Below, piece after piece: positions 6,379 to 39,715 of a DNA stretch of 64,000 nucleotides (position 1 is its first letter; each line of letters opens with the position of its first letter). The stretch is from Eutreptiella sp. 'Long Island Sound 2002' (lineage: Eukaryota > Euglenozoa > Euglenophyceae > Eutreptiales > Eutreptiaceae): NCBI GenBank assembly GCA_964036045.1, contig OZ038390.1:3608517-3672516 (forward strand), in the 5' to 3' direction. Under the pieces are notes generated by a model. It did no database searches, was not told the DNA's origin, and saw only the letters and a list, made by a program, of their open reading frames with translations. Position numbers and translations under genes: made by a program.

Positions 6379-6386
6379 AGTGAGGA
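6377..6386 (+). promoter_or_regulatory. Putative polypurine tract of copy 1
   Basis: The sequence GAAGTGAGGA lies directly before the LTR start TGTGACACCC. The same sequence precedes the LTR start of copy 2 (19122-19131, - strand). It is purine-rich with one T, as expected for the plus-strand primer. Confidence 0.5.
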
Positions 6387-6465: not shown

Positions 6466-6709
6466 TGTGGCGATTCCTAGCGAAGGTGTGCGGGTAGCCT
6501 TCTGCTCAGAATTACAAAAAGCCACTTTCTATAAATTCCCGGAATTTGCTTTCACCTTCATCATTTCCTGCATGAACTGCTGACCACGCTGATCACCGAT
6601 TTATCATCTGTCGATTTCGCCGAGATCCGAACTCCACAGTCATATACCAGACGACGCGTTTCAAGTCATCTGTGAATCCCAATATCATAAGTGATCATAT
6701 TCAATCAGC

Positions 6710-8995: not shown

Positions 8996-10313
8996 GACCC
9001 CACGTCTCCTTCCCTCCACGCATCTTTCTCTCCACCTTCTCAAAGGTTACCATGTCAATCTCAGAACCCATTCGCGAATCTCTACTTCAACCAGGTTCTC
9101 CCCTCCCATACTCCCCCACACCCATGCTTTCTCTCATCACTTAATTGCGATATCGGCTTCGAGCTCTCCACTTCCACCAACTCTAATCGAATCTCTTATC
9201 GACGTAAATGCGTTTATTGTGTGTCGATTCAATCGTCCCCTTCACTGCTCTCATTCTAGTTTCTACAAGTCTCGGTATGTTTCACAACATCCGTCATTTA
9301 ATTTTTGCACTCGCTTCCTTTGTTCGACTCCTAACTTCTTCAACACTCGCCACGACTCGCTTTTTGCCCTCATCGCGCCTCCATCCTGTCTCACAGCTAC
9401 TCCCGTCATTCTTTTTCCCCACCAACCTCTCAACCCACATGTTCAGGACAACAATCCATTTCAATTTCCAAGAACGACTCAATTTCCAAGAATGAATCAA
9501 TCAAAGAAGCTCTCTAAGGAACGACAAGGTTCTCCTTCACTCGCACATGCACATCACCACCGCACAAACACTAACACAACACCTTGCACCCAACACCACA
9601 TTCACACGACACAAATCATCACTCCACCTCACTCTACACTCATCGATCACCACTCCACCACCACCGCCCCACTTCTCGCCTGGATTACGTTGACATCATC
9701 GAATACTTCATCATCATCAAGCTTGCCTGTTCCCATGCCTCCTCTCCCGATCACGAGCGCTTCGACATCATGGAGATTATCACAAGTTAACAGAAAGTTG
9801 ATTTGTGTGCCTCACGAACTGCGCCCAAAACACCAAGGTTCACTTATTCCCATGCCTCCCCTCCCGAGCACAAGCGCTTCGACATCATGGAGACTATCAC
9901 AAGTTAACAGAGTTTTGATTTGTGTATCTCACGACTTGCGTCCACAACACCACGGTTCCTTTATTCTCATGCCTCCCCTCCCAAGCACAAGCGCTTCGAC
10001 ATCATGGAGACTATATCAAGTTAACAGAAATTTGATTAGTGTGCCTCACGACTTGCGTCCAAAACACCACGGTTCTCTTATTCTCATGCCTCCCCTCCCG
10101 AGCACGAGCGCTTTAACATCATGGAGACCTTTACACGTTAACAAATTTTGGGTTTATGTCCCCCACATTGATATTTCATTCCCTTTCGTGTTCACCAACA
10201 ACCCGACCTCACACCACGAACACACCCACGCTCACAATCACATCACTATCACTCCCAATACCCCACCACTACCCCCCCGACCCAATCGCCGGCGATCCCA
10301 ACACCGAGCCTAA
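8886..10313 (+). CDS. Overlapping middle ORF of LINE-A with 39-residue repeats
   Basis: A 475-codon frame overlaps the end of ORF1 by 110 bp and the start of ORF2 by 158 bp, in a third frame. Its second half contains about 3.6 copies of a 39-residue unit with the core MPPLPSTSASTSWRLSQVNR, encoded by the 117-bp tandem repeat at 9732-10145. Composition is Ser/Thr/Pro/His-rich with no known domain. The frame could be open by chance in C-rich DNA that is poor in stops. In favour of coding, the repeat keeps its frame through all units. In LINE-B the corresponding inter-ORF gap is only about 120 bp. Confidence 0.3.
   Translation: MNGLSLNSSELTWEPRVIKINFSPINLPMLNTRSESETPRLLPSTHLSLHLLKGYHVNLRTHSRISTSTRFSPPILPHTHAFSHHLIAISASSSPLPPTLIESLIDVNAFIVCRFNRPLHCSHSSFYKSRYVSQHPSFNFCTRFLCSTPNFFNTRHDSLFALIAPPSCLTATPVILFPHQPLNPHVQDNNPFQFPRTTQFPRMNQSKKLSKERQGSPSLAHAHHHRTNTNTTPCTQHHIHTTQIITPPHSTLIDHHSTTTAPLLAWITLTSSNTSSSSSLPVPMPPLPITSASTSWRLSQVNRKLICVPHELRPKHQGSLIPMPPLPSTSASTSWRLSQVNRVLICVSHDLRPQHHGSFILMPPLPSTSASTSWRLYQVNRNLISVPHDLRPKHHGSLILMPPLPSTSALTSWRPLHVNKFWVYVPHIDISFPFVFTNNPTSHHEHTHAHNHITITPNTPPLPPRPNRRRSQHRA
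9732..10145 (+). repeat. 117-bp tandem repeat, about 3.6 units, between LINE-A ORF1 and ORF2
   Basis: Units start near 9732, 9849, 9966 and 10083 with an exact spacing of 117 bp. Each begins CCCATGCCTCC or CTCATGCCTCC and contains GCGCTTCGACATCATGGAGA. Units differ by a few substitutions; the last one is shorter and more diverged. Confidence 0.9.
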
Positions 10314-13300
10314 TGGTGACAACAACAACACCACCAAGCCCCCCTTCATTTTTCTTCCTCACCATCCAAACACCACTAAACACCGTCACCCAGTACTCTC
10401 TAAAACCACATTACAGATCACAACTCATAACACTGCCAAAAACATGCACGACATCCAAGCCACCGTCCTCCACCACTTCAGCAAAGGAACAGACATTCTA
10501 TGCCTTCAGGAAATTCCCTCCAACATTACCCTTGACAACACCCTTGGCCTCACCACCTTCGAAAACTATGCCCCTGACAAAACAAACGGCACTGCCTTAA
10601 TCGTCCACAAACACCTCGCTCCCTTTTGCCGCAAAACCCACCACACTAACATTCACGGTTGTCTCACTACCATAGACATCACCCTACCGGGATACCCCAC
10701 ATTTCGTATCTTCAATATTTATAAAACCCACATCCAATCACATCAACAACGCCTCGCACACGTCATCACCACTCTCCAGCAAAAAGAACCAATTCACCTC
10801 CTCATTGGAGACATGAACACTCACCTACAACCACACTTAGACACCGACAACATCAAACACCCAAAATCCTGGCCTTGGCTCTATGACCAACTACACCCCC
10901 CAACTCCAGACACTACCCCCCGGCTACATGACCTTTTTCGGTCCCAAAACCCCCATCTCCGCCAATGGACAAGGCCCCGTAACAAGCGCCTACCCGACTC
11001 CCAATCTCGCATAGATCTCATTATCGCTTCTTCCTCCTTCATCTCCATATTCAATCCACAAAATACCTTTATCAATACCACCATCAATAACTCCGATCAC
11101 TACCCTGTCACCTCCACCATTAACATACCTACCAACCCACTAAACATCTACGACATTCCCCACGCAGACATCTACTACAGAAAACTCAACAAAGAAGAAC
11201 ACAGCAAATTTCTCCAACGCCTCCACTCCCTGGACACATGGACCCAAAATAACATGACCTCCATTTTAAACTCTCCCATCGACGAATTAATCGACACTAC
11301 AAACAACATCCTCTGCTCTCTTGTCAACTCCTACAAGTTGGTCACCAACCAGCATCATTCCCACAAACCTACCAATATCGAAAAGGCCTTCACTCACCAA
11401 CTCAACAACATCCAACCCTCCACCACTTTAACCTCCAAGCAAGCCAAGACACTTCAACACACCCTGGACAAATGGACTGAAAAGAAAAAACGTCAATCCC
11501 AAAAACGTCTCCATCACTCTCTCATTAAAGGACGGAAAATTAAAAAGTCTCTCAATAACATCTTCACCCCCCGCTCCACCACACCCATGGCCCTATACGA
11601 TACCAACAACAATCTCACCTCCGACCCCTACTCCCTCTGCGAATCCATGGGCCAGTGCCTCACCGCTTTAGGAGGACCCCCAGACTTCCAGATAGAACCC
11701 CAACTTATCGACTCCCTTATGGAGCTCTCCCCCTCCATCCCTCAGGACGCTCCTCACCCCGAATTCACTGAAATCTTCTTCAACACCTTGCTCTCAAACT
11801 CAAACCCAGTCAAAGCCCCTGGCTTTGACAACACCAACCTATACCTCTTCCACCTAGCTCCCAAACACATAAAGTCTCTCCTCTTTCACGTATGCTCCCA
11901 CTTCATCACCAACCCCATTCCCAAACAATGGCTCACCGCTCGAATCTTCCTCCTCTACAAGAAACACGACCCCCACAACCCTATCAATTACCGACCCATA
12001 GCTCTTCTCCAAACAATTTATAAAATACTCGCCTCATATGCCGCTACCGCCCTAACCTTCTACGCCACCAAGTATAACCTACTCCACCACTCCCAATACG
12101 GTGGCATCCCCAATCACCGCACCACAGACCACATATTCACCATGATCTCCAACATCTCCCTCCACCCCGACATCTACCACCTCTACCTCGACCTCAACAA
12201 GGCCTTCAACTCCGTCCCCCACCAAGCCCTATGGCAAATCCTACACAACTACAACTTCCCCAAACACATTATCTCTCTCATCGAAAACCTATACTCTCAT
12301 CCCGCTGACTATCCCACCGTCAATGGCTTCTCTCTTTTTGCCGCCATGACTATCAGGGGACTCCGCCAGGGATGCCCAATGTCTCCAATTCTTTTTAATC
12401 TCTTCATCGACCCCATAATCCGCAAACTCTCTTCCTTGCTCCCTTCTCACACCTTCTCCGCTCTGTTCTCTTTTATTGACGACATAGCCCTACAAACTGC
12501 CTGCCCCAAAATCCTGCACACTGCACTCTCCTTCCTCTTCAACGTAGGCCCAAAATACGGCCTCTCCTTCAACGCCACCAAATCCGAACTCCACGCCCTC
12601 AACAATGCCCCTCACCTCACCATCCGCATTTCCTCTACTACCCACTTCAGCACCTTCGATCAACATGGCAAACCACGCCAATATTACAAATACCTAGGGG
12701 TCTTCTTCTTCACTTCTCAACAAAATCAACAAATGTTCCTCCTCCTGAAAAACCTCGTCAACTCCTTCTTCACCAACCTCCTTCCTCTATCCTTATCACA
12801 CACCGAACTCATCAAACTCTCCAATATTCAACTTATTCCTATCCTTGCCTACCGCCTCATCTACAATTCCCTCCCCAACAAACTTCTTGACACACTTGAC
12901 CACTCCATTTGGCTCAACATAGCATCCCAAGGCAAACTCTCACTCCGCACTCCCAACAAAACCAAATATTCTCCTCGCCACACTCTTGGTCTTGGCATCA
13001 CCAAAATATCACACGTTACCCACACTCAAGCCATCAACCACTTTCTCCGTTACACATCAAACGAAGGTCCCTCCACATCCAATCGTTCTATCCAACACAC
13101 CCTCTTCCACCGCGGCCCAGTTTCTAACCTCCTGCAAGACATACTCATCACCTCAGCCCACCACTTCTCCATCCAAACACACAACATTCCACACCACAAC
13201 CCCTGCCAGGTCCGATCACTTCCACTCAACTCAGCCATCCAAGTCGCCTTCCTCGACCACAAGAATGAAAATTCAAATCTCTGGTTCCCGGGCACAACCA

Positions 13301-14625
13301 TCCAACACAATCTCCACTCCACATCAGTCCAATTCTCCGACAACATCTTCCACCTTCACGACACCCACCACTTCTCCTTCATCACTCAAAAGGGCAACGA
13401 ACTCTCATCCTTTATTACTACTCCCACACACCCAATATGCCCAACCACACTGCAAGACTTCCCCATCTCACATACCACCACCCTATCAACCACACATTAT
13501 TTCCAGCTCAAATCCAACCAGAATATTCCCCTTCCCAACTTTTCACATCTGGATTATTGGGGCTGTCACGACTTACTCAACGCTCTCCAATCCAACACCA
13601 CCTACTCTATCATCTATACCGACGGATCGGACGACCCCAACTCTTCCAATCCCTCTGGATCAGCCGCAATTATCTCCCTCCAAACCAACGACCACACTAT
13701 CATTACCTCCCCCTCTCCCCTCAAAGGGTCATACCCAGCAGAAATCTACGCCATCATCATCTCCCTCCTCTACCCTCAACTCACCACCCTCCCCCAGCCG
13801 ATCATCTTCGCCATCGACAACTTGAGCACATGCCTCACCCTAAATACCCTCCTTCACTTTCACTCTCCCCCCTTCACCACTAGCAACAACGCCTTTGCTC
13901 TTTGGTACAACCTCATATGGCATCTTCTCCAACATTTAAAACACATCGCCATCCTTTTCACTTGGATCAAAGGACATGCCGATTTCCCCGGCAATGACGC
14001 GGCGGACAGTGTCTCCAAATGGAGCACCACCCACTTCGATTACCTTCTCTCCCCCACAACTTCCACACAACTGGCCATTAACCAAACTCCACTTCCCGGC
14101 AAAATAACCTCTAAACTCACGAAACATCAACTCCCAACCCATCAACACAACAACATTCAGCTCTCCCTTAGTAATCACTTCTTTCTCAAATCCTCGTGGT
14201 TCTCCACTTTCACCTTTAAGTGGGTGAATGGCCTCTTCTCTTGCAAGGGCTACCAACCCCACTTCATCCTCAACACCTACCTCTGCCCTCTTTGTAATCA
14301 CCACCACCCCTTAGACCCCATCACCTTCATCACCGAATGCCACACTACTAACGCAATACGGAAAAAATTCTTCAACACTTGGAATGGGCACTTCCACAAC
14401 ACCATCATCACTTGGTGGGCCACCGCTTCCAAAGGCGACCGCCGCAACTTCATTCGAACCCTCATACCCAACACACTCAGCAATCAATTACGCACACCCC
14501 CACGCGACCACAACCTACTACTCCAACATCAAATCTCTTCGTCAAGCCCTAAAATATCGACAAAAACCTCTCACCACCCTCCTCAACGAAACCAAACAAT
14601 GGCTCATCGACAACCCCATCTCTAA
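10156..14625 (+). CDS. LINE-A ORF2: APE endonuclease, reverse transcriptase, RNase H, zinc motif
   Basis: A 1489-residue polyprotein for target-primed reverse transcription. APE endonuclease at about residues 90-325: LCLQEIPS, LLIGDMNTH, RIDLIIASS, SDHYPVTS. RT at about 545-830: NYRPIALLQTIYKILA, LDLNKAFNSVP, GLRQGCPMSPILFN, and the catalytic box SFIDDIAL (Ile where YADD or FADD is usual). RNase H at about 1150-1285: IYTDGSDD, AEIYAI, and IKGHADFPGNDAAD. A zinc motif follows at about 1376 (CPLCNHHHPLDPITF, then C), then WWATASKGDRRNFIRTLIP. Homology to LINE-B continues beyond about 14520 in another frame, so the last ~35 residues up to the stop at 14625 are probably out of frame. The start is uncertain: 10156 is the first Met in frame. 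Confidence 0.9.
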   Translation: MSPTLIFHSLSCSPTTRPHTTNTPTLTITSLSLPIPHHYPPDPIAGDPNTEPNGDNNNTTKPPFIFLPHHPNTTKHRHPVLSKTTLQITTHNTAKNMHDIQATVLHHFSKGTDILCLQEIPSNITLDNTLGLTTFENYAPDKTNGTALIVHKHLAPFCRKTHHTNIHGCLTTIDITLPGYPTFRIFNIYKTHIQSHQQRLAHVITTLQQKEPIHLLIGDMNTHLQPHLDTDNIKHPKSWPWLYDQLHPPTPDTTPRLHDLFRSQNPHLRQWTRPRNKRLPDSQSRIDLIIASSSFISIFNPQNTFINTTINNSDHYPVTSTINIPTNPLNIYDIPHADIYYRKLNKEEHSKFLQRLHSLDTWTQNNMTSILNSPIDELIDTTNNILCSLVNSYKLVTNQHHSHKPTNIEKAFTHQLNNIQPSTTLTSKQAKTLQHTLDKWTEKKKRQSQKRLHHSLIKGRKIKKSLNNIFTPRSTTPMALYDTNNNLTSDPYSLCESMGQCLTALGGPPDFQIEPQLIDSLMELSPSIPQDAPHPEFTEIFFNTLLSNSNPVKAPGFDNTNLYLFHLAPKHIKSLLFHVCSHFITNPIPKQWLTARIFLLYKKHDPHNPINYRPIALLQTIYKILASYAATALTFYATKYNLLHHSQYGGIPNHRTTDHIFTMISNISLHPDIYHLYLDLNKAFNSVPHQALWQILHNYNFPKHIISLIENLYSHPADYPTVNGFSLFAAMTIRGLRQGCPMSPILFNLFIDPIIRKLSSLLPSHTFSALFSFIDDIALQTACPKILHTALSFLFNVGPKYGLSFNATKSELHALNNAPHLTIRISSTTHFSTFDQHGKPRQYYKYLGVFFFTSQQNQQMFLLLKNLVNSFFTNLLPLSLSHTELIKLSNIQLIPILAYRLIYNSLPNKLLDTLDHSIWLNIASQGKLSLRTPNKTKYSPRHTLGLGITKISHVTHTQAINHFLRYTSNEGPSTSNRSIQHTLFHRGPVSNLLQDILITSAHHFSIQTHNIPHHNPCQVRSLPLNSAIQVAFLDHKNENSNLWFPGTTIQHNLHSTSVQFSDNIFHLHDTHHFSFITQKGNELSSFITTPTHPICPTTLQDFPISHTTTLSTTHYFQLKSNQNIPLPNFSHLDYWGCHDLLNALQSNTTYSIIYTDGSDDPNSSNPSGSAAIISLQTNDHTIITSPSPLKGSYPAEIYAIIISLLYPQLTTLPQPIIFAIDNLSTCLTLNTLLHFHSPPFTTSNNAFALWYNLIWHLLQHLKHIAILFTWIKGHADFPGNDAADSVSKWSTTHFDYLLSPTTSTQLAINQTPLPGKITSKLTKHQLPTHQHNNIQLSLSNHFFLKSSWFSTFTFKWVNGLFSCKGYQPHFILNTYLCPLCNHHHPLDPITFITECHTTNAIRKKFFNTWNGHFHNTIITWWATASKGDRRNFIRTLIPNTLSNQLRTPPRDHNLLLQHQISSSSPKISTKTSHHPPQRNQTMAHRQPHL

Positions 14626-16179: not shown

Positions 16180-18978
16180 CCCGTTGACGCCCGGTGCGAG
16201 CCCGGCGGGAGCGTGTTCCGTGCTGTAAAGCCCCGCATCGGCAACCGATGCACCGCCAGCGGAGATTTGTATATCAGAATATCAGGAATCAACAGGGTCT
16301 TATTTTCACATTGTTTCCGTCAATTTTTACGCTTCCGTTCTGATATTCACTGTTTTGACAGCTGGCGGTTAGCTCGCGACTTTAGCGTAACCGCCTGTTT
16401 AACTGTTATATACAGATATTTTAGCGCAAATCGTGACGAAGACTCTAAAGTCTTCAGGAATTGCATTGATGCATCCGCAATTTTCACATCTTACACTCGC
16501 AACCTTAATCCGAATTTTTCAGGATGTCGAAATCGGATTTTCGACTTCGACATCCCCGCACTTGATTTGACCTCTTTCGAGTGGACCTACGTGCTTCCCT
16601 ATGCAGGAATCAACTTTCCTTTTATCTTGCGCTCCATTTGTCTTAGAGATATGGGCAAAACAAAGTTGATACGTGAGGCCACTTGTGAGGGTCATATCTC
16701 GTGCCGCTTGCGAGGAATGACAATAAGGAAACGTGGGATGTATTCACAATACTCCCGACGTAATTTAGGAAGCTTCATATGCCTTGCGTCTCCACACGTG
16801 CGCGCTAGTGTAATGGATCATGGTCAAGAGGGTAGAGTTTGCGTTAGGACTCTTTGGCCATGATATTGCGTGCGTTAAGATAACCTTCGAGTGTAGCGCG
16901 CGAGTGTTGGTGTCGCATAGGAACTCTCCTTGAGTTCCTATGAGCGATTGACACAAAGTTATGCCCTTGGAGGGGCATGACATATCGTGGGGGGAGCTAC
17001 CTTTTTGGGCAATATGTGGTATGTGCCATGTGTTGTGTTGCGTGCCCATTTGGCGGGTTCATCGCTCCAAGCCAAACCCGCCAATGGACCTCATATTGCG
17101 CAAGCCCCTTCCTTATACTCCCCACGATCAATTGCAAGCCTAACCTTCGTGGAGGAAAGCTTGTGGGGCGATCCCAAAGCGATGCGTTGGGAGCAAGGTG
17201 TGTGTTTTGCAATTTTCCATGTTTTCATGTGCCCACTTGGGAAGTAGCGCTCGTAACCTTTCAAAGCGCCCCAAGTGGAGCACATATGTGGAATCGAAGG
17301 TCATTGGTGTCAAGTCATTGTGTTTAGAAGGATTAGTTGATTGCACGATCCAAGCCGAAGATATTATAATATAATTGTGCGCCTTTCAAGGCACTTTTGT
17401 GTGTCTTTGTGCCAATTTTGCCGTTTTTGGCCCGTCATGATGTCAAGTGGTGACCGTGTATTTCAGCGTTGCGCTCAATTGACATCATGACCCAAGTATG
17501 ATATGAGGGTACATACTTCGGTGCCCAACATATCTTGGACCCGGCGAATAACTCCTCTTGGGCTTGGCACATCGTGGCCGCCATGTTTGCGATTTGGGAC
17601 TATCCCAAATCATGGGCTCACTTGGCGACCCTGCCATTCCCAAAACCGGGGGAGTTGGGCGACGCCCAAAGGATATGTTGGACACACATGACTTGATACC
17701 AATCCTATGGCGCACTCCGGTCCAACTCGGGCATGTGCCTCATTTGCCCCAACCATGAGTGTGCGCATTTTTGGCCTTTTTGAGCAATTTTCCACTTTTG
17801 CTGCCCGCCGTGCACTATGTTCAGCCCACCCGTGCACGCCGGACGCATGGACCAATGGACCATATATGACATGGGTGTTATGCATATTGGTCCCCATGGT
17901 TCACACACCACGTGCGCGAAGCGGAGCAACCTTCGTTAAGGTGCTAGCCCAAAGTGAGTGTGGGCAATTTTGCCATTTTGGCATTTGTGGACCCAATTGG
18001 GATCGTCACCAGGCCAAGTGGCATGAAGATCTTTGAGAGCCAAGGGCGTGGGAGTCTTCATTGGACTCCCGGTGGACCGCGTATGGAAAAGCGGATCCGA
18101 TCTCCAAGCCGGCGTGGAGATATACTATTGGGTGCACCCCGAATTTTGGCTCATTTCGAGCAGCCAAAATGACCCCATTTTGGGACCCCAATTTCACCCC
18201 TCCGTGTGGTCAATTGGCGGCCCCATATCTCTTTGCCCACAGGGAGCCCGGACCTAATTCCAAGTTGTGCACTCAGATAAAAGTCCTAGGTCCTGTCTCC
18301 TAACCTGTGAGTCATTGGCCTTGCCCTGGCCGGGCGAGCCACGCGTGGGAATGACGCCAATTTTGGTGATTTTGGCATCATGACCCCACTTGACGAACCT
18401 GTGGTGCCCTGATGCCGGGACCTCAGAGGGAACCAGGTTGGGTGAGGGCTCCAGGGAGTTCGTAGCCGAAGGGCATAGGGTCAGTTGCCTCGTCCCTACC
18501 TCTGGCGGGTCCGGACGAGGGGTCAATTTTGGAGATTTTCAAGCCAATTTCAGTTTGGGCTGAAACAGCCCATTTTCAGCTACCAACTCCTGAGGGATAA
18601 TGGCGGGGCCATATCTCTGGCTCAGAGAGGAGTTGGGACCTGCCGTTAAGGGAGCATAGGAAGCCACAGGCGGTTGGCCTTGGAGCCCCTTGGTTCCCAG
18701 GAACTCGCCTGTGGCTGGGCGGGACACCCCCCCTATTGGCAGGGTTTCAGGGTCCGGACTGTGTAGGGCATGGGTTGTGTTTGAGCCCCCGCCCCCACCA
18801 GCCACTGAGAGGGTCGGACCTGGGATTGGGATATGAGTTGGGACTGAGTGTCTATTGTCCAGTGATGCCCTTACCCCAGTCCAGTCTTAACCCCATGAGT
18901 ACATATCCTGATGTGTTGCTGTACATACTTTCGTTCCCTTGTTGCAGAGTGGCAAGGATCCTGAAACGCTTTGTCACA
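16113..18978 (+). repeat. 3' LTR of copy 1, remaining 2.87 kb
   Basis: From about 16255 to 17050 it shares blocks with the LTR of the complete element (both read in LTR orientation): GCCAGCGGAGATTT, AGGAATCAACAGGGT, GTCGAAATCGGATTTTCGAC, TTCGAGTGTAGCGC and TTGGAGGGGCATG. The interval from about 17500 to 18970 recurs inverted as the split LTR of copy 2 (45095 onward, and 30719-32024). It ends TTTGTCACA. No coding capacity is recognised; small open frames here are incidental. Confidence 0.8.
16267..16277 (+). promoter_or_regulatory. Putative LTR TATA box
   Basis: TTGTATATCAG lies in the block GGAGATTT..ATATC shared with the other LTR family, where it reads TTATATATCGG. The flanking bases are also conserved between the two families. 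Confidence 0.45.
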
Positions 18979-20515: not shown

Positions 20516-20629
20516 TCAAGCGCCCCTGGCTGCAATCGCCCGGGTGAGTGCTGCCAAGTCCGAGACGTGGATCTTGGTCTTGTGCTTGCGGATGTAGTCC
20601 ATGAAGGGGGTATTGACCCGCGGCACGAA
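20516..20629 (-). pseudogene. C-terminal end of chromovirus pol, copy 2
   Basis: Read on the - strand it encodes FVPRVNTPFMDYIRKHKTK and the tail up to ARGA and a TGA stop, equivalent to the last 37 residues of copy 1 pol. It starts exactly at the LINE-B insertion point; the rest of the protein is at 28868-29989. Confidence 0.8.
20618..20629. repeat. Target-site duplication of LINE-B, left copy
   Basis: CCGCGGCACGAA is repeated exactly at 28868-28879. Joining the flanks restores the uninterrupted pol codons for SSFVPR, as in copy 1. Confidence 0.9.
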
Positions 20630-20879
20630 TCACTTTCTGAGTGTCTATTTTTTTTCGATTGCCCCTTCAGATGGACAATGTCGCACCACTAGTAAAAAAA
20701 TAAGCCGTCCAGGACTAGTGGCATTTGGGCGCATTTCACCGAAATTTGAGCATCTACCTTGGTTGGCATTGATCGTGCCACCTACGCCATTTCACCGCCG
20801 TCGCCGACATTTCTCGTCTTTGCCAACCTCTAGTCCCATTTCGCAATTCCGACGTGAACGCGCCTATTTTCACGCTACC

Positions 20880-21430
20880 ATGTTCCCAAGCCCATATACG
20901 CTCCTTGGTTGGTCCAATGCTTCCCAAACGCAAAATTCTATGGATATTGATGACTCCAAACTACCACTTTGCCAAAAAAAAAAAAACTTCATCCACGCTT
21001 GCCTAGCGGTTTTCCACGCACCTTTGGACAATACTTACATATTGACCAAGCGGCGCCTACGGCCCTACAACGATGGGCTTCCTTTGAAAGCAACGCTGAA
21101 CTCCTCATATCTCGAACACGAAGCATCAAAGTGCAAGGCAACATGGCGTATGATGCCAAGAAGCGAATCCACACGTGTGCCACGTTGCGAAAATTATGGG
21201 ACACTTGCCAATGGAACCATGAGTTCAACGTTTCCGACAAAAAGAACTCCTTCACGGAACTCAACACCACTATCCCGAAAGGCTCGGGCTTCTACTCAAA
21301 TTGTGCACACGAAGACTTGGCGCACGTCTATGATATCTTGCACATCCACAAGACCTTCCTAGTGTGCCCGGTGCCGTACAACTACGTGGACCACGACTTG
21401 GGAACCACCCTAGAGACCGTGACGGATTAG
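20880..21430 (+). pseudogene. LINE-B ORF1, N-terminal part, broken
   Basis: The first ATG (ACCATGTTC) opens at 20880. The frame shifts at a 13-base A run near 20975-20987. The second frame reads GFPRTFGQYLHIDQAAPTAL and onward to a TAG at 21428-21430, with a further TAA in the same frame at about 21454, before the main ORF1 frame resumes. The three pieces appear to be one ancestral ORF1. Slippage at the A run could be mutational; programmed shifting is possible but the downstream stops argue for decay. No domain is recognised in this part. Confidence 0.6.
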
Positions 21431-21496
21431 GCGGCCTCCATAGGACACGCCCTTTAACTAGCCCGCTCGCGCAACGAAGAGTTCGAGGGATGGTTC

Positions 21497-23587
21497 ATGT
21501 TACCGGCGCCCATTAAAAATTGCAATGCGGAAAATTGCTTGTTGGTTGACCCCCGTTTGCTTCTCACTCCCTTACGCCCCTTTATTACGCAACGCTTTAG
21601 CTTCCATGATGCAAAGCAATGGTGGATCCCCGGCAACCAAAACGTTGAGAACGCCGAATACATTTTGGGGAATGCTCTCGCCGTGCCATACATCGCCTAC
21701 CGACTTCATTCCCAATCGTGGTATGCTCCGTCTAAGCACCCGAGTGTCACGGTTGACCACTCCTCAAGCCTACGTCGCTTCGTACATCAAAGTACCAACT
21801 TGGATATAGAGCAAGCACATGTCCTACTTCGATTTGACGTGCTACGAGAGATCATTGATCAACGAGAGCTCCCGAGTGACCAAGAAGACACCAACACCCG
21901 AAAGACAGCGGAGCTAGGCAAAGTGCGGGACTTCTACAAATGGTTGAACAATACGCTTGCACCGGACTTTGAGGGCGCGGCGACTACCACCAATTGCAAA
22001 TATTATTTTGAGAACGGAGAAGCCCTTCGTGCACCACACCCAAATTATTATCGGTACGACTATACCATGGCTCCGGCTCTTGCAAACGAACTTATGTCCG
22101 TGGCTTTGGAGCATCAAGATTTCTTACGAGGGCGATTCTATGTGATTGAAGTGGCAAAAATGGTTGACCAACACTCTTTTTTTGTGAACCCTTCACGCAA
22201 CGAGAGAAACCGCCACAAGGGAGAATTTACACCCACCGAGGTCATGAACACCCTCATGGGCCACATGATTGGGGGACGAGGGCTCACCCGTGTCATGGGT
22301 ACGTCAATCAAGAGCCGGGATAGCGTGATAGTCCGATTGGACCTTAGCAATACCCCAAGCGACGAAGGGCGCTCGCCTCTCTCTACCTTTGCCTCTTTCC
22401 TCCACACTAATGGAGCGATGGTAATGTGCACCTCAAAGGACGGAGCGTTGATCACCTTCAATGCATTTGGACAAGGGGGCAAGCAGGAAGCTCACCCTAA
22501 ATCTCCGCCAACCATGGTCTCTATTCCGCCGCCAATGCCTAGTCGGAGAGAGCCAAACAAAGTGGATGTCCAAGCGCCCAACACGACCTCACTTTTTGAC
22601 ATTCAAACTGCGGCGGGTCTCCTAGGCCCATTCACGCGGTTTGAACTCCACTCGAGATCCGAAAATCCTCCTATAAGCTTCTACTCCGTCACCTATGAGA
22701 AGCTCCAATCCGCTCAAATTGCCACGGGTTTTGCTATGGGCCCCATTTCCTTTCACCCGTCCCAACCTTATCTACAGGTTGACACACTTCTACACCTCGA
22801 CCCCTCGGTGGCTGAGGAGGATCGCCCGGCGGAAGCACGAGTGCGAGCGGGCCTGAACGTCGGCGCGGGGGCCTTCCTCAAGGACTACATCGCCAACTAC
22901 AAGGAGCATCAAACACTCCTACGCCCGCCTCGCCGCCCGCCGCGAGAAGAAGATCGACAACCGGAGGACCTCACGGAGGAAGACCTCCCGGGCTTACGCA
23001 TCATCGAGGACGTCATCGACATGACTATGGAGACCACCCTAATGGCCTACTTCGAGAATCAGGAATGGGAGCGAGAGACCCGAAGAGGCAAGCTGCACTA
23101 CGGATGGAAGTATGTGGATGCCTCCCACACCCTCAAACGAGCGGAGGAACTCCCCACGGAGCTCATGAATCTCATCGACAACCTCATGGACGCTAAAGAC
23201 TCGGAGGACATCCCCCTGCTAGCAGTGCAGCCGAACCAAGTCAGCGTGAACGACTATGAACCTGGGGTGGGCATAGGATGGCACAAGGACATCGATGACC
23301 TAGGCGACACTATCACCTCGATTTCACTCATGGGGGCTACCACCATGGAGTTCCGTAAAGGAAATGGCCCGGTGGTGAGTGTGCGGGTACCACGATACTC
23401 AGCCCTCCAAGTCACGGGAGAACTTCGAGAACAATGGCAGCATCAGGTGCCCTACCGCATGAGTGATTTGGTGGATGGGGCCGAAATCCCTCGGGACCGG
23501 AGAGTGGCGGTCATCCTTCGCAACGTGCAGTGTGGTCTGGACGCCGAGCCCGACGCCGAAACTCAAGACGGCAGCGGGCAAGCTTAG
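21497..23587 (+). CDS. LINE-B ORF1 main part with C-terminal AlkB-type dioxygenase domain
   Basis: A 696-residue open frame. Residues 1-440 are an unrecognised ORF1 region; about 365-425 (SLFDIQTAAGLLGPFTRF on) resembles the C-terminal part of LINE-A ORF1. Residues about 480-685 form an AlkB-like Fe(II)/2-oxoglutarate dioxygenase: PNQVSVNDYEPGVGIGWHKD gives the HxD pair (His596, Asp598), ISLMGATTMEFR forms the next strands, the distal His is 649 in QWQHQVPYR, and RRVAVILR gives the R-x5-R pair (Arg669, Arg675) that binds 2-oxoglutarate in this family. AlkB enzymes remove methyl groups from 1-methyladenine and 3-methylcytosine in single-stranded nucleic acid. In this context it may act on element RNA or cDNA; that is inference. 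The N-terminal part of ORF1 upstream is broken. Confidence 0.85.
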   Translation: MLPAPIKNCNAENCLLVDPRLLLTPLRPFITQRFSFHDAKQWWIPGNQNVENAEYILGNALAVPYIAYRLHSQSWYAPSKHPSVTVDHSSSLRRFVHQSTNLDIEQAHVLLRFDVLREIIDQRELPSDQEDTNTRKTAELGKVRDFYKWLNNTLAPDFEGAATTTNCKYYFENGEALRAPHPNYYRYDYTMAPALANELMSVALEHQDFLRGRFYVIEVAKMVDQHSFFVNPSRNERNRHKGEFTPTEVMNTLMGHMIGGRGLTRVMGTSIKSRDSVIVRLDLSNTPSDEGRSPLSTFASFLHTNGAMVMCTSKDGALITFNAFGQGGKQEAHPKSPPTMVSIPPPMPSRREPNKVDVQAPNTTSLFDIQTAAGLLGPFTRFELHSRSENPPISFYSVTYEKLQSAQIATGFAMGPISFHPSQPYLQVDTLLHLDPSVAEEDRPAEARVRAGLNVGAGAFLKDYIANYKEHQTLLRPPRRPPREEDRQPEDLTEEDLPGLRIIEDVIDMTMETTLMAYFENQEWERETRRGKLHYGWKYVDASHTLKRAEELPTELMNLIDNLMDAKDSEDIPLLAVQPNQVSVNDYEPGVGIGWHKDIDDLGDTITSISLMGATTMEFRKGNGPVVSVRVPRYSALQVTGELREQWQHQVPYRMSDLVDGAEIPRDRRVAVILRNVQCGLDAEPDAETQDGSGQA

Positions 23588-23706
23588 CGAACTGCTTCAA
23601 CGCCTCGGCGTCCCTCAACCCAGCGCGCATCGTTTGAGCACCCCCCCCTCCATCCTCTGAACCCCTCCGCCCCCGCCCCACCCCTAAAAACCCGCGACCT
23701 TCACGC

Positions 23707-24555
23707 TTGCCCGACCTGGCTTGCTTTGGTCTTGAGCCCCCTCCCGTGACCAGTTGGAGGCAAAGTAAGGGGTATGTGCGTCCAGCTGCAAAGCTCAACA
23801 ACCCCCCGCCCCCCACGCTCAAAATCCTTTCACACAACCTGGAAAAGAAACCCCCCACCCCCTTCATTTTCCACCACCTACAAAAAGGGTACCATGTCTT
23901 GCTCCTCCAGGAACTGAACGAAGAGCCCAGCCTCCCACACATCTTTAGCCACGGGGGGGAAAAATGCAAAATTTTCACCAACATCAACAAGAGAGAGAAA
24001 AAGAATGGCACTGCCATCGTGGTCTCTTCGGCTTTGCGGCCCTACACAAAGATTGTTCCGAACTCGGACAACGATGGACTCATGTGCTCGGTTGAAATAA
24101 CCCTCCCGGGCGCCCCCCCCACACTCCTCACTTCTCTCTACTCCCCCCCACCCGCAATTACCAGGCGCCCCCTGATTGAAATCAACCTGTCGCGTCTTCT
24201 TTCCCGATACCCCTACCATGTGGTGGGAGGTGATTTCAACTGCATCCGCAATCCCCATCTAGACTCCCTGCACGCTGATTCCAACCCGTGGGCCTGGGTC
24301 ACTTCCAAAACATCGGGCAGTAACCCGTCATGGATCGATACGTACCGACACATGCACAGCACTGCCCTGGGGTGGACCCGACCGGCGTCTAAGAACAGAT
24401 TGGACTACATCTTTGCTTCGAGGAGCCTCTTCCATGACCAAAAAATTGCTGACGCTTCAATTCTCTATGGTGATTGCTCTACCGACCACCACCCTGTCAC
24501 AGCACAACTGCACTCACCCCTCATCCCCACACAATCCCCCCCACCCCCCCCGTAA
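23707..24555 (+). pseudogene. LINE-B ORF2 fragment: APE endonuclease
   Basis: 282 residues with the AP-endonuclease fold motifs of LINEs: VLLLQELNEEPS (about residue 63), VVGGDFNCIRN (about 173), KNRLDYIFASRS (about 229) and STDHHPVTAQ (about 257). The enzyme nicks target DNA to prime reverse transcription. The frame ends at 24555 just after a C-rich run (about 24536-24552), where homology passes to another frame. Conserved catalytic Glu, Asp, Asn and His residues are visible. Confidence 0.85.
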
Positions 24556-25309
24556 ACGCTTCCGAAGGCTAAAAAAACAGGAATTGCTCCGTCTTCAAGG
24601 GGGACTGCAACCCCTCGAGAAATGGTGTGAGGACTTTAACCAACACCTCCCTGACGTCCCGACCTCTGACCTGGTCCCGATAGTGGACGCCATTCTCCGA
24701 GAGTGCTCGGAGGCCTACCACTCGATTACCACCCTGGCGGGAGGGACAGCCCCCTCCAAAATTCAGAAAGAATTCACCCAATTGGCCAATGCCCTCCCCC
24801 CAGCCTCCCACCCCCGTTTCAGAGAAAAAATGAGGCAGCTCAATGACTACCTCGATGAATGGCAGAAAGCGAAACAGAAATCGGCCCGGACCGCGGTACA
24901 CAGAGCGATCGTCCAGGGCCGCCAACTCAAGAGTGCCATCCAGAAACACCTCTAACCCCCGGATCAGGCTCCAATCTCTCTCAGGCGCTCTGACGGAACC
25001 CTTGCTACAGACACCAAAGAGGTTGCAAAGATATTTTCGGATACGCTCCTCCACTTGGGGGGTTCGCCTGACTACACCCCCCCCGACGATTTCACGGAGC
25101 GCCTCCTGAGCCACACCCCCCAGTGCCCTTCGGGCACAGAAACTCAGGACATCCCGGACATGACATGGTCAGAGTTTACCGACATCCTCCACTCGGCTAA
25201 CCCGCGCAAGGCAGGAGGAGACGACCACACCAACACCTACCTGCTCTCCGTCCTCCCCCCCCACCTGCAGACGCTCTTCTTTCTGGTGGTAAATCGCTTC
25301 CTGCATTAA
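24556..25309 (+). pseudogene. LINE-B ORF2 fragment: endonuclease-RT linker, stops and frameshift
   Basis: It continues in the frame two bases from the endonuclease. The segment VHRAIVQGRQLKSAIQKHL ends in TAA (24953-24955). The same frame carries on with the equivalent of the LINE-A linker (TLLHLGGSPDY aligns with CLTALGGPPDF) to TAA at 25307-25309. The homology then shifts frame into NPMPPHWTTAQVCLIYKK. So one in-frame stop and one frameshift fall here. Confidence 0.7.
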
Positions 25310-28300
25310 CCCCATGCCTCCCCACTGGACGACTGCCCAAGTATGTTTGATCTACAAGAAAAAATGCCCCCACGACCCCGCAAACTACCGCCCCATAGCC
25401 CTTTGAAACACTGTCTACAAGCTAGTGGCCCGACATGCCGCCTCTGCCCTCCAAACCTTCATCAGAGATCATTCCCTCATGCACCACAGCCAACACGGGG
25501 GCATGCCAAATTTCCGAACCATGGACCACCTTTTCCACGTCACGGCAGAAATCGCCCGAAGCCCCCACGCCTACCATTTTTACATCGATTTTAACAAGGC
25601 CTTTAACAGCGTTCCCCACCCCACCCTCCGTCGGGTCCTCCACCACTATCGAATGCCGGCGGGGCTGGTAGACCTGATCAGTGGACTCTACGCCCACCCC
25701 CAGGATGCCCCTCTTGTCAACAATGTCACACCCTACCACTACCTCCAAATCAGGGGCCTCCGCCAGGGCTGCCCCATGTCCTCTGTCCTGTTCATCCTTT
25801 ATTCTAACGTGCTGCTCCATGCAGCCCCTCAACCCTCTCCTTTGGAAAGACCCGCCGAGACCTCTGCACACGCTTTCATCGATGACAAATTGTACCGATC
25901 ACCCTCCCAGACCTACATCCAAAAGTTAATTGACTTCTATGACACGGACGCCAGGACATGGGGGCTCCAAATGAACTGTTACAAGTCAGAGGTGCACGCC
26001 CTGGGTGGCGTCCCACAGCATGACTTCCAGAGCCCAAGGGGCTTCACACTTTCTACTGTCGACCCGGATACCAAACAGCCACGGAAGGGCTACAAATACC
26101 TGGGGGTTTACATCTACAACGATAAGCACCTTCCGCAACTCCGACACCAAATACACCCGGAACTGAGCAGCTACTTCGTACACCTCTCCCCGCTTCGCCT
26201 CACCCTCCCTGAGCTGGTTAAACTGGTGAATGTCCAACTGATACCAATCCTCACGTACCGCCTCATCGCCCACCCTTTTCTCCCCAGCAAAATAGATGAG
26301 CTCACGGCAGCGGTCTGGAAAGAGCTTGCTGCGCATGGCAGAATCTCGCCCAAAGTCTCCACTAAGGACATATACCAGCCACGTGCTAAACTGGGGCTAG
26401 GCCTCCGCCACCTGGGAATAGCGGTTCACAAGTCTTTTGTTGAGGCGGGACTAAGGTACCTGAACCAGGACGGACCCCCGGCCAGTTGTGTGGCAGTTAG
26501 AGACGCCCTCCTTTCGACACGGCAAAATGCCCTTCAAGATAGCTTCCTGGATGCGGCCAACCGCCTGAGTCTTCGATTCCACGCCCCTGGACCATGGAAC
26601 CCCTGCCTCCCCTGTGAGCTACACGAGCGAGAACGACTGTATGCTGCACCCCGAAATGCCCCCCCCTGCCTGGCCACGGTTACCAAAGTCTACAAAAAAA
26701 CAGCCACCATTTGCTTCGACACCGGGGAATCCGCTACCATCACGGAACGGAGTAATTTCACCTTCACCCCCCCCAACACCCCTCCTCTCCCCCCGGGTGA
26801 CATAACCCACTACCACCTTTTCCCACCCTTCTCTTCCCCGCAAACCCGCAACCCCGACATCCCGGTTCCTCTTCAAGCGGACCTCATGGATAGCACCTGT
26901 GAAGGCCACTGGTTCCACCTGCCTAACCTCCGCCACGTTCTAAACCATGAGGATCTAATGGGGTGGGGGTGCATTCAGGCGGCTAACCTCGTCGCCGAGC
27001 TCCCCTTTGATGACATGGCGTGGATCTATACGGATGGAAGCTCGGGAGATGGGGGCCATGGCAGCGCCTTCGCTATCTTTTGGCAACAACAGTGTTACTT
27101 CCTCTGCCCCTCGTCACCGTCACCCACTTCAGGGGGCTCCGAGCAATGGGCCATGGCAATGGCGTTAGCCGACCTCCCCAACATCCTCCCCAATACTCCG
27201 GTGGTGATCTTGGGTGATAACCTTGACACAGTCGAAGCGGTCAACCGAGCCCTCTCCAGCCCCCTCCCAGCGAGGCCGTCCACTTACACACAGGGCACAC
27301 GAGACACTGCCTACACATCCTTCCTCGCCCCCCTCCCCCACCTGATCCATGTGGCTTGGATCAAGGGCCACGCACACTTTATGGGAAACGAGCTCGCGGA
27401 CTATTTCTCAAAATGGGCCGCTCAAGCATTACTGTGGCACCCCTCCCTCCTACCCCCCCCCCCCCCTGCGAGAGTAGTCACTAGTGGGGGCCTAGCCCTC
27501 ATCTCAAAAATTCCGAAACACCACACCCGCTCCCTCTTCCCGACCCACCCACACACGCGCCTGCACTTCAGCACCAGCGCAAGCTTTCTCCAACAGAGCA
27601 GCTTTTTCTCGGCAATCGCATTCAAGTGGGTGTCAGGCACGTATGGTTGTCAGGACTACAGACCTCACTGTGACACCAGTGACCGAACATGCCCTAAATG
27701 TCAAGAAGTGCACCCGATGGATCCCATCTCATTCTGCGCCCTCTGTCCCATGATGCAATGGTTCCAGCAGTGTCTCTCCAGCGCCTGCCCCCCCCCTTTT
27801 GACAAATTAGCACTCGAATGGTGGATAGCCAGCGACCGCGGGGACCGACGACTCGCTACCAGAACGCTCGTCCCAAAAACGCTCCACACAACGCTTGCAA
27901 CGTCCCCGTCAGGCAAGGACCCCGCTATGCATGCTAAGGATTGGGGGACGTCAGCCCCAGAACAAGTTGATGCGGTTAAGAACATTAAAAAAAAAATGCA
28001 TGCTAAGGACTTTGACAGCGCCCTGGTTAAACGCAATAGGGCGCTCACGCCACTCATCGAGGACGCCAACAAATTTCTCCACGACAACCCACCCGGGGCC
28101 ATTGGCCCACCAGTAACCAGAAACAGTTATTTTGATTCCCTGGGTGAATTCAGTACCTCCAGAGGCCATGCCCCCCGGGACCCGCCAAAATACGTTCCCC
28201 CCTCGGCCCTGCCTGCGGCGGTGTTGACACCCCCGAAACGCAAAGCCTCGGATCAACCACAGCGGAAAAAACGCCCCCCCCCCCGGCACCGCCCAAGCCA

Positions 28301-28514
28301 GCAAAGCCCAGCGCAGCGCAACGCGCTCTGGACGCCTACCTGCAGCCTATTGGCCCTGGTCCCCCCCCCCCTCCTCCCCCTGCGCCACCCCGACGTGACG
28401 GAGCCCAGGCTCAGCACAAAGGGCGAAAGCGCAGTGAACCCGCCCCCCCCCCCGGCCGCACACCCTCCTGATCCCAAACAGCCTCGAATGGACAGATTCT
28501 TCCCCCCGAACTAG
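25308..28514 (+). pseudogene. LINE-B ORF2 fragment: RT, RNase H, zinc motif, PIP-box tail
   Basis: The frame holds one stop at 25407-25409 (after NYRPIAL) and is then open for 1029 codons from the Met at 25425. RT: FYIDFNKAFNSVPHPTL, GLRQGCPMSSVLF and catalytic AFIDDKLY, again Ile in the second place. RNase H at about residues 530-660: WIYTDGSSGD, SEQWAMAMA, LGDNLDTV, WIKGHAHFMGNELADYF. Zinc motif near 755: CPKCQEVHPMDPISF, then CALC. A block WWIASDRGDRR is shared with LINE-A. The tail is basic and Pro-rich (PPKRKASDQPQRKKR, NLS-like) and ends KQPRMDRFFPPN, a match to the PCNA-binding PIP box QxxMxxFF. Upstream breaks make the whole ORF2 inactive. Confidence 0.85.
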
Positions 28515-28867
28515 CGGCCTGTACCTGTTGTATGTCTCTCCTCATTCCTCCAGTAATTCCACACGATGTAGCTAGCTGATCCACCCTGACTACAGCCGAC
28601 AGTACCCTCTGTTAGCCAGGCTTTGCTTACAGTTTCGAATGCACATCCAACTCTCATGATATATCGCATATATCACCCCCTCATGTGCCGGCGGACGCCC
28701 TACAGGATCTTGAGGCGCCGAGCACCCGAATTTGCACTGACCCAATGGCGTAAGCGGCATCCATCGGGTGACTCTGCCTACTGGGTTCTGCTGTAAAGTA
28801 GTCTTGCAGTGTAAATTTGATCGAACAGTCTTCACCGGACTCAAAATGTGTCTACGTGCAGGTTAAT
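28515..28867 (+). other. 3' UTR of LINE-B
   Basis: 353 bp from the ORF2 stop TAG to the target-site duplication. No poly(A) and no obvious short repeat at the end (GTGCAGGTTAAT). No gene seen. Confidence 0.75.
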
Positions 28868-28879
28868 CCGCGGCACGAA
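28868..28879. repeat. Target-site duplication of LINE-B, right copy
   Basis: CCGCGGCACGAA is identical to 20618-20629 and marks the 3' end of LINE-B. Confidence 0.9.
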
Positions 28880-32024: not shown

Positions 32025-34381
32025 TAAAGAAGGTCCCTACGAGGACCGGCCCCCGCTGTGCCCCTTCCGCCTGTTACCCCTGCTGATTTACTCCGGATCA
32101 ACGATTGCATTCCTCAAATTCCAAGGTCCAAAATCCAAAAATATAGAAAATAAAATCCTCCTTCAACCCTGAATAGCAACCAGATCCCACAAATGCAGCA
32201 ATAACCCGATTCACAATCCAATCCACACTGCGGGCTTCCCTTCAGCACACCGGTCGTCCCACGGTGGCGGGCATGTACAAGAATTGCACCAAAGAAGAAA
32301 GCCCTGAAATTGGCATATGAACACAAATAAAGCAAAGTTGGGGAAAGAGGTAAACATACACATTCATCGCCATAAACCCCTCATTCCCTGGACTCAAGAC
32401 CTTCCCTTGACTCACCAACATGTTGCCCTGAACCAGGTCAAATGAGATGGCTGAATGCCATGTATCGCAAGTCACTACACAAACCCCAAAAATGTGTTCA
32501 CTCCCAAGCCTCTAAATCCTAGCCCAATAGGGGAGGTGGCGTGTCATGGCCTAGAGTGGCCCTCAGGACCATGCCCTACCCTGACATAAACTTGGATGGA
32601 CTTGGAGTCGAATGGGCTTGGAGAACTGCCCCATGAGTTTGAACTCATAACATGCCAAAAACTGCCAATTCACACCATATTGGCCATATATCAAATATAT
32701 GCTCAAGATTGAGGTTACCACTTATCCGAAGGCTCAAAGTATGCATGGAATCGAAGTCTAGTATTCATGGAAGATAGAGACCAAAGGTCAATGCCCATGT
32801 ACATCCCCACTTTACCCTCGAAACCCCTTCAGATATGGGCGCCACGCACTGCCCAAGTCAGCCCATGATTTTGAGACCAATTCTTGTAATCCTTCGTGTG
32901 CCAAGCCAAATGGAGTACGCAATCCGGCATACGATGGTGTTCAACTCCAAAGCATATGCCAACGTATGAACAACATGCCATGGTTCGACTGTCCATAGGC
33001 TTCTTGCTGTTTGCCGACCAGTTGAGCACACAAAATACAAAAATGAGCAAAAATTGAGGTCAAAAACATGAAAATATGTCCAAATACAAAGTTGTCATGA
33101 TAGTATATCTCTATGCTCACCCATGATATCCGCTCATGGTTCAATACACGAATGATTGGAACCATTTGCGAACAAATCCCCCACTTGGATCCCCAATCGA
33201 GCGCATGGAGATACCTTCGCCACTCATATCTACATGCCCCATGAAAATGGGAGTGCACTCATGGATCTCTTTGCCAAACATACCATGAGCAATACATACG
33301 CGGTAGACTTAGTCTAGCGCTTTGAATTCCACAATTGGGACATGGGCAAAGCCCTTGTCACGTATGGCTCCCCATCTCCTCCGCCACACGAAGATATATC
33401 ACATGGGCGTGAGCATATCAAGACATATACTACCAATATCACACATAGCCCTTAAAATAGGCTCCCACCATGGTATGCCATGCCCCTCCATGGTCATAAC
33501 TTTGAGTTAAATGGACGTGAGAACCTAAGAAAAGATGCTATGCAACCGCAAGACTCATGCGCTACACTCGAAAGTCATAATATCAAGTCCGGACACATGG
33601 TCAACAAGTTATAAACAAGTTTCTACCATGTTGACCATGATCCTATGATACAACGAGTGTGTGTGACGACTTAAGGTGTTGGACCCTACTAAAAATAAGT
33701 TGAGACCAAGGCGCTTGCAACACAACCTTCCTTATTCTCTTTCCTCACACTCGCGCGTAGATATGTCCCTTCAAAGTGGTCTCACGATCCACTTTTGTTT
33801 CCCTTATATCTCCAAGTCAAATGGGTGGCAAGTATAAGGGAAACCTGATTCGGGCATAGGGAAAAGAGTATGACCACTCGAAGAAGACCAAATCAAGTGC
33901 GGCGATGTCGAAGTCGAAAATCCGATTTCGACATCGCGAAAAATTCAGATTAAAATTCCGAGTGCATATTTAGAAAATTGCGGAAGCAACGAACCCTTTC
34001 CTGATGAAATCTGACCCTTCATCGGCGTTTCCGCCAAAATATCTGGAAATAACAGTTAACCAATCGGTTACCGCAAAATCGCGAGCCAACTGACAGTTGC
34101 CGATACATTGACTATCAGAACGGAAGGCTGAAAAATTTCGGAAACATTATGATAAAAAAACCCTGTTGATTCCTGATATTCCGATATATAAATCTCCGCT
34201 GGCGGCGCCTGGGTACTGAATATGGCCGCTCATAGCCGGAATGGCCAAACCTATCACACTATCACATCGAGTTACGTCAGGTGGATGGGAGAGTATGATA
34301 TCAGCCAATGGCGGCTTGCCGGCACATAGATACACACCCCAAGTGACCCCAAGATGGCCACGGGGGTCCGAACCGGCTTCA
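32025..34381 (-). repeat. 3' LTR of the complete Ty3 element
   Basis: 2357 bp; on the - strand it starts TGAAGCCGGTTCGG after the PPT and ends GGACCTTCTTTA. It is a direct repeat of 42738-45094. A TATA-like box is at 34181-34191. Confidence 0.95.
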
Positions 34382-34392
34382 CCCCCCTTCTC
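34382..34392 (-). promoter_or_regulatory. Polypurine tract of the complete Ty3 element
   Basis: GAGAAGGGGGG on the - strand abuts the LTR start TGAAGCC. This is the plus-strand priming site. The 256 bp from here to the pol stop (34393-34648) are non-coding 3' UTR. Confidence 0.85.
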
Positions 34393-34648
34393 AGAGCAGT
34401 GTATCCGCTCGGAAATAATTGAAGAGAGGACGGGAGGACCCCAATGGGCTCCAACTACAACATGGACCTAGGGGATCAAAGATAGAAAAATGTCGTCGGT
34501 CGACCTAAATAAGTATACCATAATGAAATATATATGTGGAGATCGAGTGAAGGGGGTAGATGGCCAATCAAGGCCCAAAAATCCCCGGATGAACGCCCTC
34601 ACCCGTCTCCCAAGCACAGAAACAAACAAAAATACCAAGGGGGATCCA

Positions 34649-39649: not shown

Positions 39650-39715
39650 TTTCTCTGGGATTCCACCGATTTTCGGAGGAGAGACCTCCGAGGTCCCACT
39701 CCCGTGGGGGCTCCT

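Follow-up and report, generated by a model that had tools for sequence, protein, structure and literature searches.

The genome of Eutreptiella sp. 'Long Island Sound 2002' (assembly GCA_964036045.1) harbours long interspersed nuclear elements (LINEs) in which the ORF1 protein is fused to an AlkB-type 2-oxoglutarate (2OG)-Fe(II) dioxygenase domain. The copy considered here, LINE-B, lies in a window of 64,000 nucleotides (contig OZ038390.1, positions 3,608,517 to 3,672,516), in which an open reading frame (ORF) on the plus strand at 21497–23587 translates into 696 stop-free residues. The anatomy of the fusion and the selection acting on it are in our opinion practically certain. As for function, the best explanation as a whole, to which we give a probability of about 0.5, is that the ORF1-AlkB protein keeps the RNA of the element free of methyl groups. 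The proposal of a first-pass annotation, made from the letters alone, that the element carries a 2OG dioxygenase domain of its own is borne out: the predicted domain is complete, multicopy, present in several families and under purifying selection.

Residues 490–678 (22964–23530, plus strand) are an AlkB-type 2OG-Fe(II) dioxygenase domain, as indicated by Pfam, by the PDB match to ALKBH8, by a structural model and by Foldseek and VIA-align matches. The Pfam search with the 696-aa ORF matched PF13532 (2OG-FeII_Oxy_2) over residues 534–674 with an E-value of 7.5e-13 and 49.6 bits against a curated cut-off of 31.2, so that the profile match on which the first-pass annotation had staked its interpretation exists. 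The AlkB signature that it had read in the frame (HxD, distal His, R-x5-R) is found as H596-x-D598, H649 and R669-x5-R675, and is accompanied by N585-x-Y587. The seven active-site codons extend over 23249–23521 on the plus strand (N585 at 23249, Y587 at 23255, H596 at 23282, D598 at 23288, H649 at 23441, R669 at 23501 and R675 at 23519).

The nearest solved structure, both by sequence and by fold, is human ALKBH8. In the PDB sequence search this protein matched residues 494–664 with an E-value of 3e-14, and Schizosaccharomyces pombe Ofd2 matched residues 583–677 at 1.7e-8. A model of the AlkB domain, built with an alignment of loci from a viral collection, reached a predicted local distance difference test score (pLDDT) of 89.5 and has the predicted double-stranded beta-helix fold of the AlkB kind; the whole 696-aa ORF folded alone gave an unusable model (pLDDT 30.8). 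ALKBH8, ALKBH6 and Ofd2 rank at the top of the Foldseek and VIA-align matches in the PDB and ALKBH5 also ranks high, these lists being ranked resemblances with which other AlkB families remain compatible. Among the structural matches in BFVD, proteins of giant viruses and phages come first, and some AlkB domains of plant RNA viruses appear lower. Besides PF13532, no Pfam domain was found in the ORF at E-values up to 10, and thus neither an RNA recognition motif (RRM) nor a methyltransferase. The NCBIfam scan gave a sub-threshold AlkB match (14.1 bits against a cut-off of 231) and PHROGs none; searches for related loci with ORF1, with each reverse transcriptase (RT) and with the RT pair alignment retrieved no relative from the viral or genome collections, and no viral contig matched an RT motif pattern. 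Scans of the window for tRNAs and Rfam families found no match.

The ORF was said to belong to a LINE, and its surroundings agree with this: an APE-type endonuclease, an RT and an RNase H follow it on the same strand, and a 12-bp duplication encloses the whole. LINE-B occupies 20630–28867 on the plus strand (8238 bp) and is inserted in a minus-strand Gypsy copy. Its boundaries are given by the target-site duplication CCGCGGCACGAA, identical at 20618–20629 on the left and at 28868–28879 on the right, and by a related Gypsy copy at 3782–6419, in which the uninterrupted target site is found at 4891–4902. Another copy of the element (L128) also has a similar repeat of its flank. Five further whole copies, chosen for long open frames or, in the case of L129, for divergence, all align from the first four bases of LINE-B or earlier; two of the five reach the 3′ end, which is GTGC followed by 5–6 A in these two and GTGCAGGTTAAT in the window copy. 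No direct repeat of at least 80 bp pairing the two ends of the element was found, unlike in a long terminal repeat (LTR) retrotransposon. LINE-B is a non-LTR retrotransposon of autonomous type.

In the window copy ORF2 is damaged. Its endonuclease part (23638–24555, plus strand; Exo_endo_phos, E 2.7e-10) is followed by the linker and the start of the RT (24560–25406), broken by frame changes near 24555–24560 and 25304–25308 and by stops at 24953–24955 and 25404–25406, and then by the RT and RNase H part (25407–28514; RVT_1, E 1.8e-19; RNase_H, E 2.4e-6). The broken segment was traced with the ORF list and with tblastn using ORF2 of LINE-A, a second LINE of the window, and the ORF2 parts of LINE-B align with this intact 1502-aa protein. 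Since ORF2 has about four lesions (two frame changes and two stops) in 4.9 kb, an unbroken 2.1 kb next to it is unsurprising. We considered domestication, suggested by an intact 696-aa frame beside a broken ORF2, and dropped it, ORF1 itself being broken upstream.

The frame at 21497–23587 does encode a LINE ORF1 protein, as first annotated, but not the whole of it: in other copies ORF1 starts at an ATG equivalent to 20881 and comprises 902 aa. The N-terminal part is open in copies such as L097, L102, L115 and L123; in the window copy (20881–21496, plus strand) the frame shifts at an A-run around 20975–20987 and is interrupted by stops at 21428–21430 and 21455–21457. The core that follows (21497–22951, plus strand) contains no domain recognised in Pfam or the PDB, and has relatives in four other LINE families, to which it is 26–28% identical. 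This core may bind RNA.

A search of the 2.28-Gb genome with the 696-aa ORF, in which 64 of 2506 first-look candidates were scored, gave at least 65 matches on many contigs, and 61 of these 65 end at residue 668 or later. The AlkB domain is therefore present in other copies of the LINE, where the active site is kept almost throughout. Copy statistics were computed on the best 30 of the 65 listed matches, ranked by protein match, a choice that biases the pooled dN downwards; alignment columns gapped in L102 were dropped from the codon alignment. In these 30 copies N585, H596 and D598 are present in 30, Y587 and H649 in 29, and R669 and R675 in 28. The pooled pairwise ratio of non-synonymous to synonymous substitution rates (dN/dS) is 0.256 for the AlkB domain, 0.298 for the ORF1 core and 0.545 for the N-terminus. 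For variants common to at least two copies, the ratio of non-synonymous to synonymous changes per site is 0.20 in the AlkB domain and 0.16 in the core; for singletons the corresponding values are 0.47 and 0.51. This contrast depends less on the ranking by protein match than the pooled dN/dS does, and is the pattern that selection on active lineages, with later drift of their insertions, should leave.

Comparison with the divergent copy L129, 81% identical to the window copy, also shows purifying selection. For the window copy, dN/dS against L129 is 0.105 in the AlkB domain (bootstrap 0.06–0.17) and 0.110 in the core (0.08–0.14), with dS of about 0.8, and four other copies compared with L129 give 0.111–0.123 for the AlkB domain. 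At the level of sequence, the AlkB domain is constrained as much as the ORF1 core. The first-pass annotation had stressed that the catalytic residues persisted while other parts of the element decayed; this is true of the window copy but is weak evidence alone, and conservation across copies and families is the stronger argument. Within the window one could have suspected a one-off capture or a chance resemblance in a decaying element, with a single copy whose ORF2 and N-terminus are broken. The spread over many copies and several families, the selection and E-values far beyond chance refute this possibility, to which we attach virtually no credence. As a separate observation, L118 and L123 (contig C1, 139.73 and 139.83 Mb) probably arose by duplication of a segment rather than by two insertions, because their 5′ flanks share the same 12 bases.

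AlkB-bearing ORF1 proteins are not confined to LINE-B. A query of the genome with a bacterial-type AlkB (150 scored matches of 1521 candidates) led to four further families (L140–L143), picked for long open frames and hence a non-random sample. All four have an open frame of 902–980 aa that aligns to LINE-B ORF1 across core and AlkB domain (about 600 aa) with 26–27% identity and E-values of 6.7e-47 or lower, as well as an endonuclease frame downstream. Pfam recognises the AlkB domain in three; L142 has no Pfam match at E up to 0.05, yet matches the AlkB query at 8.5e-19. In the C-terminal 205 aa of ORF1, all four have an HxE metal motif and Ala in place of the Asn of NxY, and keep the distal His and R-x5-R. 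Between L141 and L143 the AlkB dN/dS is 0.044, with a saturated dS of 2.3.

In a phylogenetic tree the AlkB domains of the six LINEs cluster together (support 91/83), separate from two further AlkB ORFs of this genome. A warning of the tree program concerns long-branch attraction, which may be what joins the two LINE groups; the single group is also upheld by the shared ORF1 core, which is independent of the tree. The simplest history is one capture of an AlkB domain by a lineage that later divided into an HxD and an HxE branch. Thus, the LINE lineage probably acquired AlkB once and long ago, and it keeps the domain under selection.

LINE-A, at 6695–14625, has an unbroken ORF1 of 766 aa and an unbroken endonuclease-RT-RNase H frame of 1502 aa. 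The endonuclease-RT-RNase H proteins of the two elements are related (33% identity over 865 aa). Unlike that of LINE-B, the ORF1 of LINE-A has no AlkB domain. The ORF1 cores, compared after LINE-A ORF1 had been trimmed to residues 216–730 following a first look, are weakly similar: none of 500 shuffles reached the global score and 5 of 500 the local score, with a BLAST E-value of 0.03. When the comparison with LINE-A ORF1 was restricted to read-through residues 1–520 of LINE-B, there was no signal (214 of 500 shuffles reached the local score). A decayed AlkB domain in LINE-A was sought and rejected, 236 of 300 shuffles reaching the global and 282 of 300 the local score; in a tblastn search of the window the LINE-B ORF had, besides itself, one match, of E 0.52, at 25686–25883. 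The weak similarity of the cores together with the lack of AlkB likeness in LINE-A suggests that AlkB was probably gained by, or lost from, an older ORF1.

The 5′ end of LINE-B gives an indication of the RNA that it copies. Directly after the target-site duplication and the dinucleotide TC, the window copy carries at 20632–20657 (plus strand) the sequence ACTTTCTGAGTGTCTATTTTTTTTCG, an exact 26/26 match to the published spliced leader of Euglena gracilis (PMC6242988). The leader stands at the 5′ end of 27 of the 30 copies (L095–L124), with up to 2 differences, and at that of the four sister families, exactly in three and with one difference in L142 (over 24 bases). Leader plus GT has 1217 exact matches in the genome against 0 for a reversed control; 7 of 10 such loci (L145–L151) are presumed spliced-leader RNA genes, inferred from their common downstream sequence. 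Either LINE-B retrotransposes a trans-spliced mRNA or the leader became fixed as its 5′ end. Since the 5′ ends indicate a template RNA that begins with the spliced leader, the element appears to copy its RNA nearly to the cap. Lower shared variation of the leader was considered as proof of its re-acquisition in each cycle and rejected, the counts being too few (the 26 leader columns contain 9 singleton variants and 1 shared, the following 219 columns of the untranslated region 65 and 20).

The first bases of the leader deserve separate mention. Before ACTTTC, all 7 presumed spliced-leader RNA genes read AC, whereas 25 of the 27 LINE-B copies read TC and 2 read AC. Each of the five loci of other families or of the divergent copy (L140–L143 and L129) departs from the gene sequence at one of two leader positions, the first A or the third, and in most LINE copies seen one of these is T or C. 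These changes are either carried in the DNA of the element or produced by RT misreading of modified cap-adjacent bases. In related euglenozoans the cap-adjacent bases of the leader are heavily methylated, partly on the Watson–Crick face. One may therefore imagine that the AlkB domain strips methyl groups from the modified 5′ end of the trans-spliced mRNA and lets the LINE read through the cap; we regard this narrower idea as very unlikely. If true, it would connect the acquisition of AlkB by a retrotransposon with the unusual cap that euglenozoan mRNAs carry.

The nearest precedents are an orchid Gypsy element with AlkB and a dinoflagellate LINE with a DNA methyltransferase. The orchid Ty3/Gypsy element Gypsy_Pa_2799 has an ALKBH5-like ORF whose product demethylates m6A in single-stranded RNA in vitro (PMC9289625). 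Like LINE-B, it is a retrotransposon with an acquired AlkB-type domain that keeps all cofactor-binding residues. It differs in being an LTR element in which a second, separate ORF ends in the AlkB domain; this domain is nested in plant ALKBH5 homologs and presented in the title as a recent acquisition (PMC9289625), whereas LINE-B is a LINE with AlkB fused to ORF1, with ALKBH8 as the closest solved structure and with several deeply split families. SymbioLINE-Dnmt of dinoflagellates is described as a LINE with a cytosine methyltransferase upstream of the RT (PMC5890265); it shares with LINE-B a nucleic-acid-modifying enzyme in an ORF upstream of the RT, multiple copies and purifying selection, but it adds methyl groups, is not a 2OG dioxygenase and belongs to another host lineage. 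AlkB domains of plant positive-strand RNA viruses (Alphaflexiviridae, Betaflexiviridae and Closteroviridae) have been proposed to help maintain genome integrity (PMC9289625). These viruses are likewise mobile RNA-based elements with their own AlkB domain, although there it is embedded in the replicase polyprotein. For Diplonema, the available part of the report mentions a dozen AlkB-type genes and notes no link to transposons (PMC10161547). Among the matches listed in the open-access literature, subscription papers and Repbase reports being outside the scope, there was no AlkB-bearing LINE.

How might the fusion act? The ORF1 protein would coat the spliced-leader-bearing RNA of its own element, and the AlkB domain, acting in cis within the ribonucleoprotein, would oxidatively remove base methyls from this RNA, either ahead of target-primed reverse transcription or while it proceeds. 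The probable targets would be methyl groups on the Watson–Crick face (such as m1A, m3C or m6,6A), which stop or mislead the RT. A role on RNA in cis is suggested by the place of the domain in ORF1, by the equal constraint on core and AlkB, by the orchid Gypsy precedent and by the existence of AlkB-bearing RNA viruses, all of which is indirect support; the in-cis demethylation step in our judgement falls a little short of an even chance.

Several observations weigh against methyl removal from the element's RNA. The nearest solved structure is that of ALKBH8, a hydroxylase of a tRNA nucleoside, the wobble uridine, and not a repair demethylase. The ORF1 core has no recognised RNA-binding domain: for a five-member alignment of it, E-values of Pfam families were 0.096 at best, and the PDB yielded no sequence up to E 1. 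The divergent copy L129 has His in place of R675, and the sister families combine HxE with Ala at the Asn position that in AlkB proteins contacts 2OG; judged from these replacements, they may perform another chemistry or bind without catalysis. An unbroken ORF2 is present neither in the window copy nor in any of the five other whole copies, so that no currently active copy was seen. The ORF1 of LINE-A has no AlkB domain, which is therefore not essential to LINEs of such kind. Finally, the first and third A of the spliced leader are repeatedly not reproduced as A; if base modification is the reason, the enzyme does not clear these bases.

Other explanations were weighed as well. AlkB could act on DNA, demethylating the target or the element's copies and thereby protecting new insertions from silencing, a role that would mirror that of the DNA methyltransferase in the ORF1 of dinoflagellate LINEs; the higher-ranked structural matches, ALKBH8, ALKBH6, Ofd2 and ALKBH5, speak against this, and we hold it to be unlikely. 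Alternatively, the domain could, in the manner of ALKBH8, hydroxylate or demethylate tRNA or mRNA of the host and so act in trans to make the mRNA of the element more stable or better translated; ALKBH8 as the best match among solved structures speaks for this. The demethylation of m6A RNA in vitro by the orchid Gypsy AlkB also fits, and effects on other cellular RNA are considered by its authors (PMC9289625). The ORF, however, contains by Pfam neither of the two parts, RRM and methyltransferase, that accompany the domain in ALKBH8, and an effect in trans would aid all copies and rivals alike, so that selection on single elements would be weak; we find this explanation rather improbable.

A further alternative is that AlkB persists as a module for nucleic-acid binding or assembly and that, in the HxE families at any rate, catalysis has become secondary or has been lost. 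The combination of HxE and the Asn-to-Ala change in all four sampled sister families, among which the L141/L143 comparison indicates strong constraint, favours such a module. Against it, LINE-B keeps each of the seven active-site residues in 28–30 of 30 copies, and HxE is also found in active 2OG oxygenases. We consider it distinctly unlikely, and retain demethylation of the element's own RNA as the preferred explanation.

LINEs vary in ORF1, and here a retrotransposon lineage brings its own predicted RNA- or DNA-modifying dioxygenase, kept by selection in families that have only about 27% of residues in common. With this system one can ask directly, in a spliced-leader organism, whether methylated template bases hold back LINE reverse transcription. 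It also affects AlkB counts in such genomes, as many of the 150 scored AlkB matches (of 1521 candidates) are LINE-B ORF1s and not repair genes. In ALKBH8 the AlkB domain is preceded by an RRM and followed by a methyltransferase. By comparison with the human protein (PDB 3thp, 3tht), the partner of AlkB in LINE-B is a different one, the ORF1 core.

Some features lie beside these subjects. LINE-A and the four sister families have a further open frame of 488–815 aa without Pfam match between ORF1 and the endonuclease ORF (8847–10313 of the window in LINE-A; 3777–5435 on the reverse complement in L140; 3257–4747 in L141; 3270–5129 in L142; 3225–5672 in L143). This frame contains tandem repeats in LINE-A, L141 and L143, and is absent from LINE-B. 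The 1502-aa frame of LINE-A shows a strong excess of C over G (GC skew of about -0.6). Outside the LINE set, locus L130 carries at 1462–2763 a 433-aa AlkB ORF, possibly a host gene, with tandem repeats of some 14 residues at its end. The window also contains a chromodomain Gypsy element (32025–45099) with LTRs at 32025–34386 and 42738–45099 that are 98.4% identical; it sits in sequence whose uninterrupted copy is found at 17041–18965. Further downstream, 47984–49024 is a transposase fragment (DDE_Tnp_1_7, E 4.7e-23), which we take to be of the PiggyBac kind.

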